Program-made: the position numbers and the translations under genes | Source: Robiginitalea aurantiaca | GTDB taxonomy: Bacteria > Bacteroidota > Bacteroidia > Flavobacteriales > Flavobacteriaceae | Assembly: GCF_030380815.1 (NCBI RefSeq) | Contig: NZ_JAUDUY010000003.1 | Coordinates: forward strand, 124,001 to 188,000 | Length of the DNA: 64,000 nucleotides | Direction: 5' to 3' | Notes under the pieces: generated by a model | Seen by the model: only the letters and a program-made list of their open reading frames with translations | What the model was told of the DNA's origin: nothing | The model's database searches: none | Shown: positions 10,548 to 25,654 of the stretch, piece by piece | How positions within the stretch are numbered: position 1 is the first letter of the stretch | Layout of the letters: each line of letters opens with the position of its first letter

Positions 10548-10622
<75 letters not shown>

Positions 10623-16979: not shown

Positions 16980-19900
16980 CTATATAAATTCTGGGTTTAC
17001 TTTGTTTTCGTTGATGTAAATAACGATTGCAGCCTCTACGGGATACCCCATATCTATTATGGCATCCCTGTATTCCCGGACCTGGGCAAGGTGTTTGTTA
17101 TCGGGTTTCCCGGTTTTGTAATCCAGGATCACCGCCTTTTCCCCGAGGAAAACAAGCCGATCGGGGCGTAAAATTAGCCCATTTTTCGTTAGAATTTCCC
17201 GTTCGTTTAAAACACGGGCTCCGGGTCCGAAATAGGAGGCAAGTTGGGGGTGTCCCGTTACGGACTCCAGACGTTGCTGCAGGGATTCTCCATCCACCTG
17301 CTGTATCAACCCCTCCCGTATGATCTGAGATACAGCTTTATCCACATCAGAGGCATAAACGACCAAACTCAGCGCATAGTGCAGGATGTTTCCATACTGC
17401 ATGGCCCTGATCTGTTCGGTGTCTCTGTACCTCTCCTGATTGCTCACAAGCCTGAGGGCAATCCTGTCCCTTCCTGTGTACTGGTAAGGCAGCGGAATCT
17501 TGGCATTCTTGATCTCAGGAGTGTGATCAGGATCTAAAGCCCCAAAGGAATAAACTGTTCTGTCATCTTCCCAAAGTCCTTTTTCAGAAAGGTACCTGAA
17601 ATAAACATCTGAATAGGTCCGCGGGGTTGCAGAAGTGTCCTTTTTTGCAGGGGTTTTACTAATGATGTACAAAGCTTTAACAGCGCGCGTATGGGCCACG
17701 TACAGGAGGTTGTAGGCATCCAGTTCGAGTTTTTCCTGGGCTTCTTCATAGCGTTGAGGCGCTGGGTCACTGTAGTGCATCAGGTTTTTGTTTTTCCCGA
17801 CGAGAACGGAGGTAAAACCGGCATATCGATCCGGGTTTACGGGCAGCCAGATTTTCGGGTTTTTTTCGTAATAGATTTCCGAATGCGCATATGGAAAGAG
17901 AACGACCGGGAATTCGAGTCCTTTGGATTTGTGCACAGTCATCAGCGTAACGGCATTGAATCCGCCCGGAGCACTTATGCTTAGGGAATTTTCCTTTGCT
18001 TTCCAGTGCTCCAGAAAGGTTTGTATTGAGGGATCCCGCCGCTGACCGATTTCCTGTACGATATCCATGTAGAAAATGAGGTAGGCATCCTTCTGCCCTC
18101 CGAGGTTGAACTGCCGGATGGCGAATTCCATTACTTCATAAACCGGTTTCAATCGCGCGCGTTCAGGATGGAAGTTATAGGTAATCAGAAGTTCGTCGAT
18201 ACCGTTCAAATGCCTGGTTATCCAGGCATGTCGATCCTCCATGTCCCGGCTGAGGTAGAATAACAGGTCCAAAGCGTGATTCTGATCTTCCGGCACTACC
18301 AAATACTTCAAAAGGGCCGTCAGAAACTGTATCCCGGGATGGTTCTTCAACAACAATGTCTCTGAAGAACTGACGGGTATTCCCGAATCCATGAGATACT
18401 GCGATAACATCACGCCGTCCCTGCCCTTGCGGGTCAGGATACAAATGTCTCCATAAGCATAACCCCTTCCGGCGAGTTCCCGAAGAATGGTTAGTGTCCT
18501 TTCCGCATAAGCGTCATCCTGGTTTTGGGAATCAGCGGGGATAAACTCCAGATGAACCAGACCCTGATTGTCAAAATGAAACTCCTGCTGATTGCCTTTA
18601 AGAAAGAGGTCCGCATAGCTTTTCCTACTCATATACGCGCTAATATGACTGAAAAAGGTATTGTTAAATTCCACAAGTGGCCTGTGGCTGCGAAAATTCT
18701 TTGGAAGTGGTTGATTCACGGGTTCTACGGGGAAGGGGTTCTTATTCCCTTCGATCAAATCCAGGAATTGCTCGGCCTTCCCTCCCCTCCAGCGATAGAT
18801 GGCTTGTTTGGCATCTCCCACCAAAACCACCGATCCTCTGGCACCCTGTTCAAATTCACCTTCGAGGGCATTGCTGATCAGTGGGACGAGGTTTGCCCAC
18901 TGCAGCTCTGAAGTATCCTGAAATTCATCGATAAAGTAGTGCTGATACCTTTCACCCAGGCGCTCGTAGATATATGGGGCAGGCTGGTCGGCAATATTAT
19001 TGGAAATAATGGTGTTAAAAGCTGAAATCGGCAGGAGTCCTTCCTCGTCACGGAGTTTTTTAAGTTCCTGTTGGAGCAATCCGAGAACGGCAAAAGGGGC
19101 AATGTTTTTATAGGCATTTACCAAAAAATCCCAATAGTGCAATCCCCTGAGGATCTCATCAAAGCCCTTTTTAAATACCGGCAGGAGATTATCCATTTGG
19201 TGTTTTACAGTTTCTTCAACCCTTCCCGGATATAGGGGTTTTTCCCCAAATTCCCGAATCCATTGGCTTTCCAAGTTCAGGTTGAACTGCCCGGCTGAGA
19301 TTTTTTGCAATAGATTTGGGAATGACTTCCGATTAAAATCTGAAAATTCCAGATCATTCGAAGCGACAACGGCAAGGAGTGCTTCGGCATTTCCGATCAG
19401 CGCTTTTTCAATTTCCCTCCGATAGGTGTTCAGTGTTTTTTGGAGCAGCAGAAAATCCTCAATATATTTCTCTGAGAATGCGTCCAAATCCCTGAAATGG
19501 GTTTCATCGAAGAGGAGCTTGCCCATTTGAAGCAGGTCATGGCTAATATCCCAGCTGCGGTCATCTTCAGCTTTTTCGAGTGCAAACTCAACCAGAATTG
19601 CAGTCAGTTTCTGATCTGTTCCCGCTTTTGCGACCAGATTATTCACGGCTTCTTCCAGTAGGGCGTCGGTATCCAGAACTACTTCAAAATTCGAACGCAG
19701 CCCGAGGTCCGGGGCAAATGTCCGCAGAATCCGGTGATTGAATTTGTCGATGGTCGAAACATCAAAAAAGGCGTAATTGTGGAGTATTTGCTGAAGCACG
19801 CCCCGACTTCTATGGATCAGGGTAGTCCGGTCTGTTTGCAGTGCCTCAAGGACTGCCTGAAATAAGGGTGGCGATTGTGAACCCTCTATTCTAAGGGTAG

Positions 19901-20102
19901 CGAAACCCATTAAATTTTCAAGGATACGGGTCTTTAATTCTGAAACCGCTTTGTTGGTAAAGGTGAGTGCGAGAATTCTTCGAAAAGAACGCGCTGAACC
20001 CGGCTGTAAAATTAAAGTGAGATATTCCCGGGCCAGAGTAAAGGTCTTTCCTGAACCCGCTGAGGCATCAAAAATCCGAAAGGCTTGCAGTCGCTCATCC
20101 AT
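16980..20102 (-). CDS. UvrD-type helicase/nuclease, AddA-like
   Basis: About 1040 aa. Superfamily 1A helicase motifs are in order: Walker A DASAGSGKTFTLA near residue 15, ALTFTNKA, FIDEFQDTSELQW near 395 (Walker B), QAIYRWRGGKAEQFL near 440, LMTVHKSKGLEFPVVLFP near 715 and LLYVAHTRA near 795. A RecB-type nuclease at the C-terminus carries ILDYKTGKPD near 1010. It unwinds and resects broken DNA ends, presumably with the AddB-like protein encoded downstream. I chose the ATG at 20102 over the TTG at 20111. No ompA-type consensus promoter was recognised. Confidence 0.88.
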   Translation of the reverse strand: MDERLQAFRIFDASAGSGKTFTLAREYLTLILQPGSARSFRRILALTFTNKAVSELKTRILENLMGFATLRIEGSQSPPLFQAVLEALQTDRTTLIHRSRGVLQQILHNYAFFDVSTIDKFNHRILRTFAPDLGLRSNFEVVLDTDALLEEAVNNLVAKAGTDQKLTAILVEFALEKAEDDRSWDISHDLLQMGKLLFDETHFRDLDAFSEKYIEDFLLLQKTLNTYRREIEKALIGNAEALLAVVASNDLEFSDFNRKSFPNLLQKISAGQFNLNLESQWIREFGEKPLYPGRVEETVKHQMDNLLPVFKKGFDEILRGLHYWDFLVNAYKNIAPFAVLGLLQQELKKLRDEEGLLPISAFNTIISNNIADQPAPYIYERLGERYQHYFIDEFQDTSELQWANLVPLISNALEGEFEQGARGSVVLVGDAKQAIYRWRGGKAEQFLDLIEGNKNPFPVEPVNQPLPKNFRSHRPLVEFNNTFFSHISAYMSRKSYADLFLKGNQQEFHFDNQGLVHLEFIPADSQNQDDAYAERTLTILRELAGRGYAYGDICILTRKGRDGVMLSQYLMDSGIPVSSSETLLLKNHPGIQFLTALLKYLVVPEDQNHALDLLFYLSRDMEDRHAWITRHLNGIDELLITYNFHPERARLKPVYEVMEFAIRQFNLGGQKDAYLIFYMDIVQEIGQRRDPSIQTFLEHWKAKENSLSISAPGGFNAVTLMTVHKSKGLEFPVVLFPYAHSEIYYEKNPKIWLPVNPDRYAGFTSVLVGKNKNLMHYSDPAPQRYEEAQEKLELDAYNLLYVAHTRAVKALYIISKTPAKKDTSATPRTYSDVYFRYLSEKGLWEDDRTVYSFGALDPDHTPEIKNAKIPLPYQYTGRDRIALRLVSNQERYRDTEQIRAMQYGNILHYALSLVVYASDVDKAVSQIIREGLIQQVDGESLQQRLESVTGHPQLASYFGPGARVLNEREILTKNGLILRPDRLVFLGEKAVILDYKTGKPDNKHLAQVREYRDAIIDMGYPVEAAIVIYINENKVNPEFI

Positions 20103-20211
20103 CAGTTGCAAATTAAGGATTCTCCTTAGCTTCTTAACAATTAATTAGCGCAAAGTGTTTGTTAAAAACTGTATTTTTGGTAAACATTTTTGATAACAAA
20201 AACCACGATTT

Positions 20212-20820
20212 ATGTCATTTCAACTACCTAATTTACCTTATGCATACGATGCTCTGGAGCCTTACATTGATGCCCGGACCATGGAAATACATCATACCAA
20301 ACACCACAACGGGTATACCACTAAACTCAACGCTGCCATTGAAGGCACGGATCTGGAGGGAAAGACCATAGAAACAGTCCTGGGCGACTTAGATATGTCG
20401 AATACCGCTGTTCGCAATAATGGTGGCGGTTATTATAACCACTGTCTGTTTTGGGAGGTTATGTCCCCCAATGGCGGAGGAAGCCCTGAAGGCGGACTGG
20501 GGTCTGCAATATCGGATGCTTTTGGCTCTTATGAGGGATTTAAGGACGCTTTTAGCAAAGCTGCTGCCACAAGATTTGGTTCAGGCTGGGCCTGGTTGTG
20601 TGTGCACAAGGGGGGAAAGGTTGAGATATGTTCTACGGCCAATCAGGATAACCCGCTTATGCCTGGTATAGGATGCGGAGGTCACCCCATTCTGGGACTG
20701 GATGTTTGGGAGCATGCTTACTATCTGCACTATCAAAACCGCCGGCCCGATTATATAGAAGCTTTTTTCAATGTGATCAACTGGGACAGGGTAGCAAAAG
20801 AATACGCGGCTGGCAGCTAA
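20212..20820 (+). CDS. Superoxide dismutase, Mn-type or cambialistic
   Basis: 202 aa; dismutes superoxide in the cytoplasm. Metal ligands are His in MEIHHTKHH (about 27), His in YYNHCLFW (about 76), Asp and His in LDVWEHAYY (about 162-166). The active-site glutamine lies in STANQDNP on the C-terminal side, and the corresponding N-terminal site has Gly (GGGYYNH), the pattern of manganese enzymes rather than iron enzymes. A TATTTTTG -7-like box lies at 20172-20179. Monocistronic, with a strong terminator. Confidence 0.93.
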
Positions 20821-20843
20821 AGGCCATATCAAAGTCAATTGTC

Positions 20844-20873
20844 AAAATCCCGGATCTTCCGGGATTTTTTTTT
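20844..20873 (+). terminator. Intrinsic terminator of the superoxide dismutase gene
   Basis: AAAATCCCGGA pairs perfectly with TCCGGGATTTT around TCT and is followed by a T-run, 24 bp after the stop codon. Confidence 0.92.
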
Positions 20874-20884
20874 GCCTCTGTAAA

Positions 20885-20958
20885 TCAGAAAAGGGCAGAG
20901 AAACCTCTACCCTTTTCATCCCAAATCTTACCATAAACTTAACCTACTTATGCTATGG
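20885..20958 (-). ncRNA. Candidate small RNA, tandem copy 1
   Basis: On the minus strand a conserved sequence of about 40 nt (20958 to 20918, beginning CCATAGCATAAG) is followed by a terminator hairpin with arms at 20889-20900 and 20904-20916 (AAAAGGG with CCCTTTT, plus AGAG/CTCT). The 40-mer differs from copies 2 and 3 only by single-base changes. CCAT can pair with ATGG inside it. The T-tract after the stem is the weakest of the three. The promoter upstream matches consensus closely. Possibly a member of a known flavobacterial RNA family such as Flavo-1; I could not compare it with the model. Confidence 0.7.
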
Positions 20959-20963
20959 CAATA

Positions 20964-20994
20964 CTAAAATACTGGTATTAAGAGAAATAACAAA
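20964..20994 (-). promoter_or_regulatory. Promoter of small-RNA copy 1
   Basis: On the minus strand TTTG (20991-20994), 19 nt, then TATTTTAG (20964-20971), one base off TAnnTTTG. The box ends 5 nt before CCATAGC, so transcription should start at or very near the conserved sequence. Confidence 0.7.
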
Positions 20995-21090
20995 GAAAAT
21001 TCTTTAGAAAAAAAGACAGAAGTCCGAAAAGGACTACGTTTTGAGATGGAAATTCAAACAGGAATGTCTGGCAAATTTATGTGGATTGCC

Positions 21091-21164
21091 AAAATAAAAA
21101 GGCAAGGTTTTACCCTTGCCTTTTCCCCAAATCTTACCATGAACTTAACCTACTTATGCTATGG
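21091..21164 (-). ncRNA. Candidate small RNA, tandem copy 2
   Basis: Minus strand: conserved 40 nt from 21164 to 21125, then a hairpin (21096-21124) with arms AAAAGGCAAGG and CCTTGCCTTTT, then TTTTTATTTT. The stem sequence differs from copies 1 and 3 while pairing is kept. No open reading frame is shared among the copies in either direction. Confidence 0.75.
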
Positions 21165-21169
21165 TTCTT

Positions 21170-21177
21170 CGAAAGTA
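21170..21177 (-). promoter_or_regulatory. -7 box of small-RNA copy 2
   Basis: TACTTTCG on the minus strand, one base off TAnnTTTG and 5 nt before the conserved sequence, with a T-rich tetramer (TTTT) 20 nt upstream in place of TTTG. Confidence 0.55.
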
Positions 21178-21326
21178 AGGCAAGCATTCAGGTGTGGAAA
21201 AGCTCTTGGATGAACACCCGTTAAAACCGTTGAAATACGGGCATTGCAAATGCGTGTGGGAGAAGTAGTACGCTGTGTGAAAGGAGCAACTTCAGGGCTT
21301 GTGATAAAATAGGGAGTGATGGGTTA

Positions 21327-21402
21327 AAATAAAAAAGGCGGAGAAGACTCCGCCTTTTTTTCCCCAAATCTTACCATGAACTTAAACCTACTTATGCTAT
21401 GG
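21327..21402 (-). ncRNA. Candidate small RNA, tandem copy 3
   Basis: Minus strand: conserved sequence from 21402 to 21362, with one extra T relative to copy 2, then a strong hairpin (21331-21361) with arms AAAAAGGCGGAG and CTCCGCCTTTTT, then TTTTTTATTTT. It is the first unit met by transcription coming out of purF, which ends 103 bp upstream, and could also serve as the purF terminator. Confidence 0.75.
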
Positions 21403-21407
21403 CTATC

Positions 21408-21415
21408 CGAAAGTA
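21408..21415 (-). promoter_or_regulatory. -7 box of small-RNA copy 3
   Basis: TACTTTCG on the minus strand, 5 nt before the conserved sequence, as in copy 2. The nearest TTG lies 23 nt upstream, at the long end of the spacing seen in this phylum. Confidence 0.5.
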
Positions 21416-21504
21416 AGCCGTCAAGCCGCTCAGCATAGCAATTCAGCGATGAATTGCTTAAAACATCGATGAAATACCACTAAAGGTGTATTTCGTCGAT
21501 AATC

Positions 21505-23403
21505 TTAATAGGCACGCTGGTTTTTGCCTTCATAAAAATTGATAAAAGCGCGGTTTACGACCCGATTGCCACCGGGAGTTGGATATTCACCCGTGAAGTA
21601 CCAGTCTCCCAAATTTTTAGGGCAGGCTTTATGAAGATTCTCAATGGTCTGATAGATAATTGTTACTTCCGCCTTGATATCGGCAGGGCTGAGGATCTCA
21701 GCTATTTTGGCTGAAATCTCCTGTGCCGTAAAAGGCTCGTAAAACCTTTTCACATAGTTTATGTCTTCTGAGTCTTCCCGGACTACTGAGGCTTTACATT
21801 CTTCGTAAATATCTTTGATGGTATCTTCCGTTCCGCGATCCTTGTGAAGTTCAAGAGCAGCCCTGAAGGCGATAAAGTCTTCCAACTTGGCCATATCAAT
21901 ACCATAGCAGTCGGGGTACCGTATCTGGGGTGCGGAGGAAATCACAATGATTTTTTCGGGATTCAGTCTGTCCAGAATCCGAAGGATGCTTTTCTTCAGT
22001 GTCGTTCCCCGAACAATACTGTCGTCTATTATCGCCAGGTAATCCCCCTTTTCCACGGCCCCATAGGTAATGTCATAAACGTGGGCCACCAGATCGTCCC
22101 GACTGCTATCCTGGGTGATAAAAGTTCGGAGTTTGGCGTCCTTGATCGCAACCTTTTCAATCCGTGGACGTACATTGAGGATTTCGTTAAGGCTTTCCGG
22201 ATTGAGGTCGGAACCCAATGCGAGTATTTGAGATTCCTTCTTTTTGTTGAGGTAGGTCTGCGCCGCTCCAACCATGCCCAGAAACGATGTTTCTGCGGTA
22301 TTGGGAATATAGGAGAAAACGGTCCTGCGGATGTCCCCGTTTATCGTTTTCAACAATTGCGGAAACAATAGCCGCCCCAATTCTTTGCGCTCCTCGTAGA
22401 TCTCCCGGTCATTCCCCCTGGAGAAATAAATGCGTTCAAAAGAGCATGCCTTTCGCTCTTTGGGCTCCAGGATTTCATCGATCGAGACCTGGCCATTTTT
22501 CTTAATGATAATGGCATGGCCCGGGGGCAACTCCTCTACGCTGTCGTAGGTAACATTAAAAACGGTTTGGATGGCAGGGCGTTCCGAGGCGATAACCACT
22601 ACTTCCTCATCCTTGTAGTAATAAGCCGGCCGGATTCCTGAGGGGTCTCTGAGGACAAAGGCATCACCGTGCCCGAGCATTCCCGCCATGGTGTATCCCC
22701 CATCCCAGTTCTTCGAAGATTTCCGGAGGATTTTCGCGACTTTCAACCGCTCGGCAATATGAGGGGAAGCTTCCATTTTTGAAAACCCTTCTTTCTTGAT
22801 ATTCTTGTACAGTTTGGCTACCGCATCGTCGAGAAAATGCCCGATCTTCTCCATTACCGTAATGGTATCAGCCATCTCTTTAGGGTGCTGTCCCAGCTGA
22901 ACCAGATTGTCAAACAATTCCTTGACGTTGGTCATATTGAAGTTCCCGGCGACAATAAGGTTGCGGTGCATCCAGTTGTTTTGCCTCAAAAACGGGTGAA
23001 CACTCTCAATACTGTTCTTTCCAAAGGTCCCGTAACGGACGTGTCCGAGGATCAATTCCCCGATATAGGGAATATTGCTTTTAAGCCATTGGATATCCTC
23101 TGCCTTTTCGGGAGACTCTTCGAGAGCTGTATTGATTCTGAGATTTATGCGGTCAAAGATGTCCTGAATAGGTTGTGACTGTATGGATCGTATGCGACTC
23201 ATATAACGCTCTCCTGCGTCCATATCGAGTTTAATACTGGCGTAACCAGCCCCATCCTGACCCCGATTGTGCTGTTTTTCCATCATCAGGTACATCTTGT
23301 TGACCCCGTAGAACGCCGTCCCGTATTTCTCCTGATAATATTCAAGGGGCTTCAACAGGCGGATCATGGAAATACCACATTCGTGTTTGATCGCGTCACT
23401 CAT
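21505..23403 (-). CDS. purF: Amidophosphoribosyltransferase, long Bacteroidota form
   Basis: 632 aa; transfers the amide nitrogen of glutamine to PRPP, the first committed step of purine synthesis. The class II glutaminase has its nucleophile at Cys9 in HECGIS, implying removal of a short propeptide, with RGQDGAGYASI and VRYGTFG downstream. The phosphoribosyltransferase half has the PRPP loop YLAIIDDSIVRGTTLKKS near residue 455. It is longer than enteric PurF (about 505 aa), which is usual for this phylum. Last gene of purN-rnhA-pfkB-purF, all on the minus strand. Confidence 0.9.
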   Translation of the reverse strand: MSDAIKHECGISMIRLLKPLEYYQEKYGTAFYGVNKMYLMMEKQHNRGQDGAGYASIKLDMDAGERYMSRIRSIQSQPIQDIFDRINLRINTALEESPEKAEDIQWLKSNIPYIGELILGHVRYGTFGKNSIESVHPFLRQNNWMHRNLIVAGNFNMTNVKELFDNLVQLGQHPKEMADTITVMEKIGHFLDDAVAKLYKNIKKEGFSKMEASPHIAERLKVAKILRKSSKNWDGGYTMAGMLGHGDAFVLRDPSGIRPAYYYKDEEVVVIASERPAIQTVFNVTYDSVEELPPGHAIIIKKNGQVSIDEILEPKERKACSFERIYFSRGNDREIYEERKELGRLLFPQLLKTINGDIRRTVFSYIPNTAETSFLGMVGAAQTYLNKKKESQILALGSDLNPESLNEILNVRPRIEKVAIKDAKLRTFITQDSSRDDLVAHVYDITYGAVEKGDYLAIIDDSIVRGTTLKKSILRILDRLNPEKIIVISSAPQIRYPDCYGIDMAKLEDFIAFRAALELHKDRGTEDTIKDIYEECKASVVREDSEDINYVKRFYEPFTAQEISAKIAEILSPADIKAEVTIIYQTIENLHKACPKNLGDWYFTGEYPTPGGNRVVNRAFINFYEGKNQRAY

Positions 23404-23439
23404 GGAAATAGAATTAAAAAACCAATATGATATGGTCGG

Positions 23440-24366
23440 TTATTGGATCTCAAAATCAAACTGCGTCAGATCTTTAAATTCTTGTAACCGGGTCTCGATT
23501 TCGTCAGGAGTTACATCCTGAATGCGTTCCGTACCAAAGCGCTCGACGCTGAATGAGGCCAGATTAGACCCGTGTATCACAGCGTTTTTAAGGTTTTCAA
23601 AAGAAATATTTTTTGTCTCTGCCAGATATCCGGTAAAACCTCCTGCAAATGTATCCCCCGCACCTGTCGGATCGAAGACTTCTTCTAAGGGAAGCGCAGG
23701 TGCAAAAAAGATCCGTTTTTCGTGAAAGAGTAGGGCTCCGTTTTCGCCTTTTTTAATCAGGACGAATGCCGGCCCCATGGCACTAATTTTACGAGCGGCT
23801 TTGACCAGGGAATATTCTCCGCTGAGCTGTCGGGCTTCTTCATCGTTAATGGTAATGACATCTACCTTGCCAATCACGTCGATCAGGGCATCCCAGGTGT
23901 GTTCCATCCAATAATTCATGGTATCGAGAACAATCAGTTTGGGTCGGCTCTTTAATTGCCTGAGTACACTAGACTGAATTTCGGGGTGCAGGTTGCCGAG
24001 CATTACGACATCGGCATTTTGGAACCCCATGGGAACTACGGGATTAAAATCTGCAAGCACATTGAGTTCCGTCGCCAGTGTGTCCCTCGTATTCAGGTCG
24101 TGATCATACTTTCCGCTCCAGAAAAATGTCTTTCCTTCTTTGACGACTTCAAGGCCTTCGATATCCACGGACTTACTTTTCAGCAGATCGAGATATTCCT
24201 GAGGGAAATCACCCCCGACTACGGAGACGATACCAGGCTGTACATTGTAATTGGAGGCTGCGAGTCCTATAAAAGTTGCTGCTCCGCCGAGGATTTTATC
24301 GGTTTGGCCGAATGGAGTCTCAATGGCGTCGAATGCCACCGTTCCGACAACGAGTAATTTACCCAT
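23440..24366 (-). CDS. PfkB-family carbohydrate/nucleoside kinase
   Basis: About 308 aa from the ATG at 24366 (MGKLLVVGTVAFDAIETPFG); an upstream in-frame start adds seven residues that do not fit the family. Signature 1 is GGAATFIGLAAS near residue 35, and signature 2 with the catalytic Asp is DPTGAGDTFAGGF near 250. The substrate is not shown by sequence. Placement between rnhA and purF on one strand suggests a nucleoside or ribose-type substrate, but this is inference; ribokinase, adenosine kinase and sugar kinase all share the fold. Confidence 0.85.
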   Translation of the reverse strand: MGKLLVVGTVAFDAIETPFGQTDKILGGAATFIGLAASNYNVQPGIVSVVGGDFPQEYLDLLKSKSVDIEGLEVVKEGKTFFWSGKYDHDLNTRDTLATELNVLADFNPVVPMGFQNADVVMLGNLHPEIQSSVLRQLKSRPKLIVLDTMNYWMEHTWDALIDVIGKVDVITINDEEARQLSGEYSLVKAARKISAMGPAFVLIKKGENGALLFHEKRIFFAPALPLEEVFDPTGAGDTFAGGFTGYLAETKNISFENLKNAVIHGSNLASFSVERFGTERIQDVTPDEIETRLQEFKDLTQFDFEIQ

Positions 24367-24439
24367 TGATTTAAAAGATTTTTGCAAATATACGGTTTTG
24401 ATTTGCGATACCTCATGGCATCAGGAGTGAAGTTTTGAA

Positions 24440-25075
24440 CTACTTCCTGCCAAAATCTGCCGGGATTTCACCCCATGCCCGGGTTTCCCATTTTACCACG
24501 GGGGTGTTATAGGAATTGGAGTGCAACCATTCCTCTGCCCTGTGGATCATCTCAAAAAGTGCAGCATTTTTTTCTGAGGGTTTCAACTGTGTATTGCATT
24601 TTTTCTTCCTGACCCATGCCATCGCAGTTCTGGAATCTGAATAAAGCACACGGTTACTGCCGTGTTTTTTGAGATAAGCAAGTCCATGTACTATGGCGAG
24701 AAATTCTCCAATATTGTTCGTGCCCTCTTCAAAGGGTCCCTGCCGAAATAGTTTTTTCCCAGTTTTTGTATCTACTCCCTGATACTCCATAATCCCCGGG
24801 TTTCCGCTTGAAGCTGCGTCTACGGAAATCGACAGGTAATTGGGCGGCCCGATATCCTTCATCAATTCCTTTGAGCCCTTTTTTTTCTTGGCAATCAGCT
24901 TTAAACTGTCTTCGTAAGAAGTATTAAAGGCTTTTTCTGCCTCATCCCGGGTAATAAATCCCATGTATTTTGCCCCTTCAAAACCTTCAACTTCTTTTTT
25001 GCAGGCCTGCCAGCCTTTGTAAACCCCGGGGTTTTTCCCTTTCCAAACCGTGTAATATGCTTTTTTCTGAGCCAT
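24440..25075 (-). CDS. Ribonuclease H with N-terminal viroplasmin (hybrid-binding) domain
   Basis: 211 aa. Residues 5-50 form the hybrid-binding domain seen in eukaryotic RNase H1 (YYTVWKGKNPGVYKGWQAC, then FITRDEAEKAF). Residues about 75-205 are RNase H: SVDAASSGNPG (first Asp), NNIGEFLAI (Glu), VLYSDSRTAMAW (Asp) and a final Asp in IPADFGRK. It removes the RNA strand of RNA-DNA hybrids. It starts 4 bp after purN stops, and the pair is probably translated together. Confidence 0.9.
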   Translation of the reverse strand: MAQKKAYYTVWKGKNPGVYKGWQACKKEVEGFEGAKYMGFITRDEAEKAFNTSYEDSLKLIAKKKKGSKELMKDIGPPNYLSISVDAASSGNPGIMEYQGVDTKTGKKLFRQGPFEEGTNNIGEFLAIVHGLAYLKKHGSNRVLYSDSRTAMAWVRKKKCNTQLKPSEKNAALFEMIHRAEEWLHSNSYNTPVVKWETRAWGEIPADFGRK

Positions 25076-25078
25076 GGT

Positions 25079-25654
25079 TCAGGGAAATAGGAGGGTAGCG
25101 ATGGTCGAGGGGTAATATTTGTATTCCAGGGAGTGAACTTTTTCGGCCAGGGTTTCAGGGGTATCATCCGGGTTGACAGGGATGCGTTCCTGAACCAGGA
25201 TACTGCCTTCGTCATAGGCCGCATTAACGCGATGGATAGTGATACCCGATTCTTTTGCCCCGGAAGAAATTACTGCTCTATGTACGTGCATGCCGTACAT
25301 TCCCTTCCCTCCGTATTCGGGAAGCAGGGCCGGATGTATATTTATAATGCGATCCGGGTAGGCGTTTACCATGGCCTCCGGAATTTTCCACAGGAATCCG
25401 GCCAAAACGATGATGCTGGGATTCAAACTTTTTAATAGCCCCATAAGGCCATCAGCTTCCTGGTAGGCCGGACGGTTGAAGCAATAGAGCGGTAAACCCA
25501 GTCTTTTGCAGCGATCAACAACTCCGGCTCCCGGGTTATTGCACAAAACACCTTTGATGGTTACCCGCTCATCCCCCTTAAAGAAATTAGCAATATTCTC
25601 GACATTGGAGCCTGAGCCCGAAGCGAATAGTACAATACGTTTATCGTTTTTCAC
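25079..25654 (-). CDS. purN: Phosphoribosylglycinamide formyltransferase
   Basis: 191 aa; formylates GAR with 10-formyltetrahydrofolate, third step of purine synthesis. Substrate loop FASGSGSNVENI near residue 10; catalytic Asn and His in INIHPALLPEYGGKG near 103, followed by GMHVHRAVI, and the Asp in AAYDEGSIL near 144. First gene of the purine operon; a -7 box TACATTTG lies 29 bp upstream. Divergent from acpP. Confidence 0.93.
   Translation of the reverse strand: MKNDKRIVLFASGSGSNVENIANFFKGDERVTIKGVLCNNPGAGVVDRCKRLGLPLYCFNRPAYQEADGLMGLLKSLNPSIIVLAGFLWKIPEAMVNAYPDRIINIHPALLPEYGGKGMYGMHVHRAVISSGAKESGITIHRVNAAYDEGSILVQERIPVNPDDTPETLAEKVHSLEYKYYPSTIATLLFP

Follow-up and report, generated by a model that had tools for sequence, protein, structure and literature searches.

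Tandem, near-identical units between purF and sodA as a candidate small RNA family of the Flavobacteriaceae

The gap between purF and sodA in Robiginitalea aurantiaca holds, on the minus strand, three near-identical units in tandem, each made up of a -7 box, a 5' domain of about 40 nt and a hairpin, which we consider with high confidence to be small RNA (sRNA) genes of one family. The family is most likely a new one within a known kind of sRNA; new here means that no Rfam family is matched at the gathering score in the sRNA region and that a literature search of partial coverage found no paper naming the RNA family. Few sRNAs of the Flavobacteriaceae, a large aquatic and soil family, turned up in the literature examined; a candidate sRNA with a nearly constant core of about 30 nt, found in about four-fifths of the sampled genera and mostly at one locus, makes a strong candidate central regulator.

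Three tandem units

The window, that is, the whole 64,000-nt stretch of DNA analysed, contains the units at 20881..20958 (unit C, nearest sodA), 21091..21164 (unit B, of the middle class) and 21325..21402 (unit A, nearest purF), with predicted starts at 20958, 21164 and 21402; the covariance model R1 scores them at 102.7 bits, 78.2 bits (over 21089-21164) and 95.9 bits (over 21324-21402), respectively. Their 5' domains, at 20958-20919 (copy 1, 40 nt), 21164-21125 (copy 2, 40 nt) and 21402-21362 (copy 3, 41 nt), share the consensus CCATAGCATAAGTAGGTTAAGTT[C/T]ATGGTAAGATTTGGG[G/A], with an extra T in one. A first-pass annotation of this DNA had described three copies of a 40-mer with one or two base changes, each followed by a hairpin, and both statements hold: copies 1 and 2 differ at 2 of 40 positions, copy 3 carries one inserted T, and hairpins are predicted at 20888..20917 (unit C), 21096..21124 (unit B) and 21331..21360 (unit A), the fold z-scores of the units being -3.36, -3.22 and -3.64 (the middle unit folded minus its first two bases). 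None of 100 shuffles of the window matches the 40-mer.

The same annotation held that the spacers between the units share nothing else, which has to be given up, since copies 2 and 3 are both preceded by TTACTTTCG, a box of the -7 type, and relatives show class-specific upstream elements. The box reads TACTTTCG before unit A (21408..21415, ending 5 nt before the predicted start) and unit B (21170..21177), where the family profile is TAnnTT, and TATTTTAG before unit C (20964..20971), where it is seen in the family and class-C profiles. A generic scan of the window for sigma-70 promoters and terminators flagged none of the three units; in our reading, the promoter type lies outside the coverage of the scan and the T-run is absorbed into the stem.

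The array is flanked by two conserved genes. The upstream neighbour at 21505..23403 on the minus strand, in which Pfam at 1e-5 recognizes only a glutamine amidotransferase domain, is presumed to be purF, as in the earlier annotation; the convergent downstream neighbour at 20212..20820 on the plus strand is sodA, an Fe/Mn superoxide dismutase with the Pfam domains Sod_Fe_N and Sod_Fe_C. A separate terminator-like hairpin lies 3' of sodA at 20844-20868 on the plus strand. The sole Rfam match of the window at the gathering score is a tRNA gene at 10549-10622 on the minus strand.

Distribution and conservation

The unit is present in all ten genomes of the genus, R. aurantiaca included. The search across Flavobacteriaceae proposed in the first-pass annotation was made on an even draw of 397 family genomes and found the unit, at E<=0.01 and counting the own genome, in 312 of them, in 279 of the 330 of good quality and in 193 of 237 genera, about one-fifth of the sampled genomes giving no match; copy numbers from this survey are lower bounds, because mostly two candidates per genome were scored. 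The number of tandem copies per locus ranges from one to seven, and the loci lie mostly between purF and sodA. Model R1 was run on 40 genomes hand-picked for divergence: among the 23 from the family, 17 (the own genome and 16 others) match at >=58.8 bits, and the other six (one weak BLAST positive and five BLAST negatives) give nothing above 33 bits, while the 17 genomes from other families all stay at or below 34.7 bits, and the 40-mer is missing from those of their matches that were inspected.

The exact 19-base core string AGTAGGTTAAGTTNATGGTA occurs, among 395 genomes of the class, in 9 of 14 from the family and in 0 of the 381 others; with one or two mismatches it occurs in 20 of these 381, compared with about 76 of 381 for the reversed control. 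A further pattern, TTCATGGTAN{0,3}AGATTTG, is found in 7 of 296 genomes of the phylum, two of them outside the family (G627, G589). No exact match was found in viral contigs. A scan of named genomes returned at least 118 loci, all with at least one unit and with 230 units among the matches listed; these are counts of loci and not of species, because loci recur between collections (for example L033/L139, L048/L174 and L049/L190). Their source names are those of Flavobacteriaceae genera or of unclassified Flavobacteriaceae, Flavobacteriia or Bacteroidota, with a single exception, a Lentimicrobium metagenome-assembled genome (L234). This locus carries a Flavobacterium-type unit together with a PurF that shares 87-90% identity with the closest other PurFs compared, several of Flavobacterium among them, so that it is probably a misplaced or mis-binned contig. 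Contigs of genomes G003 (L015/L017) and G294 (L050) stop inside or beside the array, and draft assemblies may therefore under-count copies.

Across the family there is little variation in the roughly 30-nt core, TAAGTAGGTTAAGTTNATGGTA(A)GATTTGGGG, and the 5' domain is far better conserved than the terminator stem. At one locus (L046) the 40-mer is unchanged though PurF is only 64% identical, and many copies in other genomes show 100% identity over 44-47 nt. Of the 188 model matches, the best 150 all have CCA, AGTAGGT and GATTTGGG without change; weaker matches depart from the core, as in L116 (AGTAAGG), L119 (AAATTTGG) and L120 (AGTGGG, TTTGGAAC). The form of the core found in Flavobacterium is CCATAACATTAGTAGGTTAAGTTTATGGTAGATTTGGGGC, two loci (L111, L117) have insertions between CCAT and TAAG, and the T inserted in copy 3 recurs in one congener (L009).

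Terminator, fold and coding potential

Relatives in which the 40-mer stands without a terminator or structure would speak against an sRNA, as the first-pass annotation had pointed out; what is found is the opposite. When the best 150 of 188 matches to the model are aligned (139 distinct rows), standard pairs fill 99.7% of the cells of the terminator helix, compared with 53.7-67.5% paired in slid helix controls. Two-sided changes occur at 12 of the 13 pairs, and the cells that show them number 343 versus 83 in shuffles (0 of 500 shuffles as high), in rows that were chosen and fitted by a model that includes the terminator and thereby favours the structure. A model-free test for a perfect stem with a T tail is passed by 105 of 142 units from 80 listed loci. 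The helices of all three window hairpins covary in this way family-wide.

Such covariation is a signature of RNA and bears on the idea that the 40-mer acts as a DNA element, such as a protein-binding or recombination site or a mobile repeat. Strong sequence conservation in tandem would suit an element of this sort; against it, the order of promoter box, 40-mer and hairpin recurs in the units read, viral contigs are without an exact match, and a similarity search of the own 3.46-Mb genome with a 64-nt query finds just these three copies, all within a single array (at E<=10, four further matches span just 14-24 nt of the query). We regard a DNA element as highly improbable.

Averaged over the best 150 of 188 rows, the predicted fold of the RNA pairs CCAU with AUGG, leaves GUAGG in an exposed loop (unpaired probability 0.84-0.98) and keeps UAAGAUUU largely single-stranded (0.72-0.93), with GGGG partly unpaired. 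The 5' hairpin is a folding prediction that covariation does not support: among the same best 150 of 188 matches, two-sided change is seen at 0 of its 10 pairs, 97% of cells are paired, shuffles do equally well, and one pair is broken in 30 of the 139 distinct rows. Each transcript would begin with a short hairpin that exposes the GUAGG loop, run on through a mostly unpaired linker UAAGAUUUGGGG and finish in a Rho-independent terminator.

The core contains an ATG, and a tiny peptide might begin there. Its frame, which opens with MVRFG, is open in all three window copies, and among the best 150 of 188 rows the frame is present in every one, as MVRFG in 73 and MVDLG in 77. These two groups differ in frame owing to a single-base change within the core, the first 12 residues form 101 different strings in the 150 rows, and a stop precedes the unit end in just 37 of them, so that the frame mostly crosses the terminator. 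The split and the variety of strings argue that this is not a peptide gene, a possibility to which we give almost no credence. The earlier statement that no peptide frame is conserved thus stands insofar as the frames of relatives vary; the argument offered for it, the insertion in copy 3, fails, because the insertion precedes the ATG and by itself does not exclude a peptide.

Genomic context and promoters

Among the matches listed from the at least 118 loci, purF is present in 102 and lies upstream of the array, on the same strand and within 2 kb, in 102 of 102; sodA is present in 95, convergent and within 1.5 kb downstream in 94 and farther off in one (L227). In an overlapping set of 95 loci, the corresponding counts are 80 of 80 for purF and 78 of 78 for sodA. 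The gene order purN-rnhA-pfkB-purF-[sRNA]-sodA-UvrD/RecB-like helicase, which spans 16980-25654 in the window, is common to many loci.

This constant position downstream of purF, on its strand, is what would be expected if the units were a series of purF terminators or 3'-UTR elements without a role as RNAs. Three observations make that very unlikely: the superior conservation of the 5' domain over the stem noted above, the promoter box at fixed spacing before most units, and the existence of units elsewhere. At five inspected loci (L108, L119, L136, L187 and L197) neither purF nor sodA is found in the fetched DNA, which for L108 and L119 covers 1.5 kb on each side, so that purF could be farther off; here the unit occupies a different intergenic space and again has both a promoter-like box and a hairpin. 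The closest upstream frame of 100 aa or more is divergent from the unit at L136, L187 and L197, and three further loci (L145, L218 and L243) are likewise without purF or sodA in the fetched DNA. With units at other loci, three of them behind divergent genes, the units look autonomous.

In a profile built from the units of 80 listed loci, the sequence upstream of the core reads T87 A90 n n T99 T92 T50 G71. In Bacteroidota, the -7 box is TAnnTTTG. Since the profile fits this box and ends 5 nt before CCAT, the transcript start is placed, by prediction, at the first C. Among the matches listed, 228 units have 70 nt of upstream sequence; 197 of them carry TAnnTT at the expected spacing, 85 the full TAnnTTTG, and in 31 the box at the expected place is not TAnnTT. 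The general traits of a terminator-ended sRNA, an own promoter and a Rho-independent terminator, are thus both found, as far as sequence evidence goes. The proposal of the first-pass annotation that these are independent sRNA genes of about 75 nt gains support from the family-wide conservation, the box spacing, the terminator covariation and the copies away from the purF locus; the units would be transcribed separately, yielding RNAs of about 70-78 nt that start at CCAU.

Possible function and targets

The exposed, invariant segments of such RNAs may base-pair with several mRNAs and alter their translation or stability. Pairing in trans is the mechanism that we favour, but only moderately, at somewhat better than even chances, because the tests made in the search for a conserved target (SusC leaders, leaders of neighbouring genes, PdhB and start sites) yielded none. 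For SusC leaders at 27 loci from the ten genomes of the genus (of 30, two were dropped because the frame was not open and one because it was without an ATG), the own 40-mer reaches -14.6 kcal/mol versus -14.2 for shuffles, 61 of 200 being as good, in a test of duplex energy only with rule-picked starts. The leaders of purF, sodA, rnhA and purN give no signal (34, 16, 32 and 30 of 60 shuffles as good, respectively), and those of the helicase were too few for the test (n=3). Start-codon-like sites occur near control level, 15 non-self versus 12 reversed in the own genome and 69 versus 55 in the ten genomes. In the window, the best duplex after the three self sites has -33.8 kcal/mol, and the bests of five shuffled queries range from -30.6 to -36.2.

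Individual candidates came out of these searches as well. A site in PdhB in the own genome, which offers 15 paired bases including two wobbles, is not preserved in the congeners read (9 of 10 leaders located) and was rejected. A recurrent near-match, AAATCGTACCAGGAA in three genomes and AAATCCTACCAGGAA in two, was set aside as no pairing target, because in the own genome it lies antisense to a frame that we take to be RodA-like. A candidate pairing site is found in the own genome at the start of a gene that is presumably Fmt. The block CTTAACCTACTTATG occurs less often than the reversed control does (about 22 non-self versus 116), a deficit left without a reading because the pattern contains stop-like words and its reverse does not.

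A near-invariant stretch of about 30 contiguous nucleotides is longer than a usual seed, and together with the several near-identical copies and the outcome of the pairing tests it suits RNAs that bind or titrate a protein, the ribosome or RNA polymerase in the manner of CsrB/RsmZ or 6S RNA, the copies raising the dose. Each unit has a single core, in contrast to CsrB, which carries a repeated short motif. Furthermore, no 6S or Csr/Rsm model scores above its cut-off (PrrB_RsmZ reaches 18.8 bits and CsrC 9.2, both on the opposite strand), and a search of the own genome for RRM_1 (PF00076) at E<=0.001, with Bacteroides ihuae as a positive control, returned no match. We regard titration as possible, though rather unlikely, and retain trans base-pairing as the working mechanism.

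Comparison with known RNA families

The first-pass annotation had suggested that the units correspond to Flavo-1, a guess that found no backing, RF01705 being absent from the 42 Rfam matches listed at E<=10. Flavo-1 is likewise a Bacteroidetes RNA motif, widespread in Flavobacteriaceae (Guerin et al., PMC9723704; Weinberg et al.), and in Flavobacterium psychrophilum its matches are reported to be sense or antisense to transcribed regions, many lying outside them (Guerin et al., PMC9723704). Rfp18 of F. psychrophilum, also an sRNA of the Flavobacteriaceae (PMC9723704), could be compared by description only; it is described as widely conserved in its genus and as pairing through its third stem-loop (PMC9723704), and by that description differs from the present units. 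The STnc40 model (RF02057) stays below its gathering score of 45, with 38.3 bits for unit A, where the fit is best at the terminator, and 34.4 on the opposite strand.

PrrF1/F2, LhrC1-7, OmrA/B and Qrr are near-identical tandem or sibling sRNAs. Likened by description only, the units resemble them as near-identical paralogues; here, by contrast, the core hardly varies across a bacterial family.

The comparison with FopS/GibS of Bacteroides deserves closer attention. FopS has a single-stranded 5' seed, R1', followed by a terminator, is bound by RbpB, an RRM_1 protein, and represses SusC-type mRNAs at the start codon (PMC11697453). The units could be a flavobacterial branch of this family with the same action: the layout and the presence of several paralogues are alike (PMC11697453), and both share, as a weak seed-like match, the string TTCATGGTA(TT)AGATTT (in RNA, UUCAUGGUA(UU)AGAUUU), for which 33 of 5000 shuffles are as good. 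In addition, the Bacteroides FopS consensus pairs with the SusC leaders of the genus (L302-L331) better than shuffles do, 1 of 200 being as good, despite which no FopS gene above cut-off is found in the own genome. The differences are numerous. The Flavobacterium-type unit does not match the string (2883 of 5000 shuffles as good), and RF04319 scores unit A at 18.8 bits and unit B at 15.0, with unit C not listed and 19.5 on the opposite strand, so that membership by the Rfam threshold of 56 is rejected on score. The 5' part is a predicted hairpin here and a single-stranded seed in the published account of FopS (PMC11697453). In the duplex-energy test SusC leaders are not favoured by the own 40-mer, the genome has no RRM_1 match, and the units are tandem and mostly at one syntenic locus, as opposed to the 14 FopS paralogues that the same account gives for B. 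thetaiotaomicron (PMC11697453). A FopS branch is accordingly judged unlikely. Of 296 genomes of the phylum, 2 have a match to RF04319 above the cut-off, and these belong to a single family. Five loci with weak matches (L055, L056, L057, L072 and L075) were considered as FopS relatives and dropped as evidence; in L055, L057 and L075, though not in L056 and L072, the sub-threshold matches run antisense to the points where long open frames begin (ATGAAAAAC..), which calls for caution in FopS searches outside Bacteroidaceae.

Paralogue classes

The units of 121 loci were sorted into classes A, B and C by the bases that follow the core. Class C is the last unit in 39 of the 39 arrays that contain it, and class A is a mixed group that shares little more than the -7 box and takes in many single-unit loci by default. 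Upstream of class B, the profile of 78 units shows an element that resembles gTTCAtCCaAgagCTTTT and that in the window reads GTTCATCCAAGAGCTTTT (21198..21215, minus strand), about 34-51 nt before the predicted start. The link between class and promoter is not strict: one unit (L049) combines class-B downstream bases with a class-C promoter.

Since classes B and C each retain a distinctive upstream element, a single RNA domain may respond to several signals. Paralogues that differ upstream, as is evident for B and C though not for A, would then feed different signals into one RNA pool, and the locus could serve as a natural test case for the question of why several near-identical sRNAs are maintained in bacteria. 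More speculatively, and as an idea that we doubt, the array might form an RNA hub, in which a near-invariant domain in up to seven tandem copies, with at least two distinct conserved promoter types, acts through a dedicated RNA-binding partner that is not an RRM_1 protein and governs a central process in the Flavobacteriaceae.

The upstream stretch of class C is long and conserved (..TTTATTTc.CaCAATACCAGTAaTTTAGT..), with a mean of 1.45 bits per column over the final 30 nt before the unit in the profile of 39 units. In the window it corresponds to the element ..TTATTTCTCTTAATACCAGTATTTTAGT.. (TTATTTCnCnCAATACCAGTAnTTTAGT) of about 40 nt at 20962..21000 on the minus strand, a possible site for a regulator or an alternative sigma factor.
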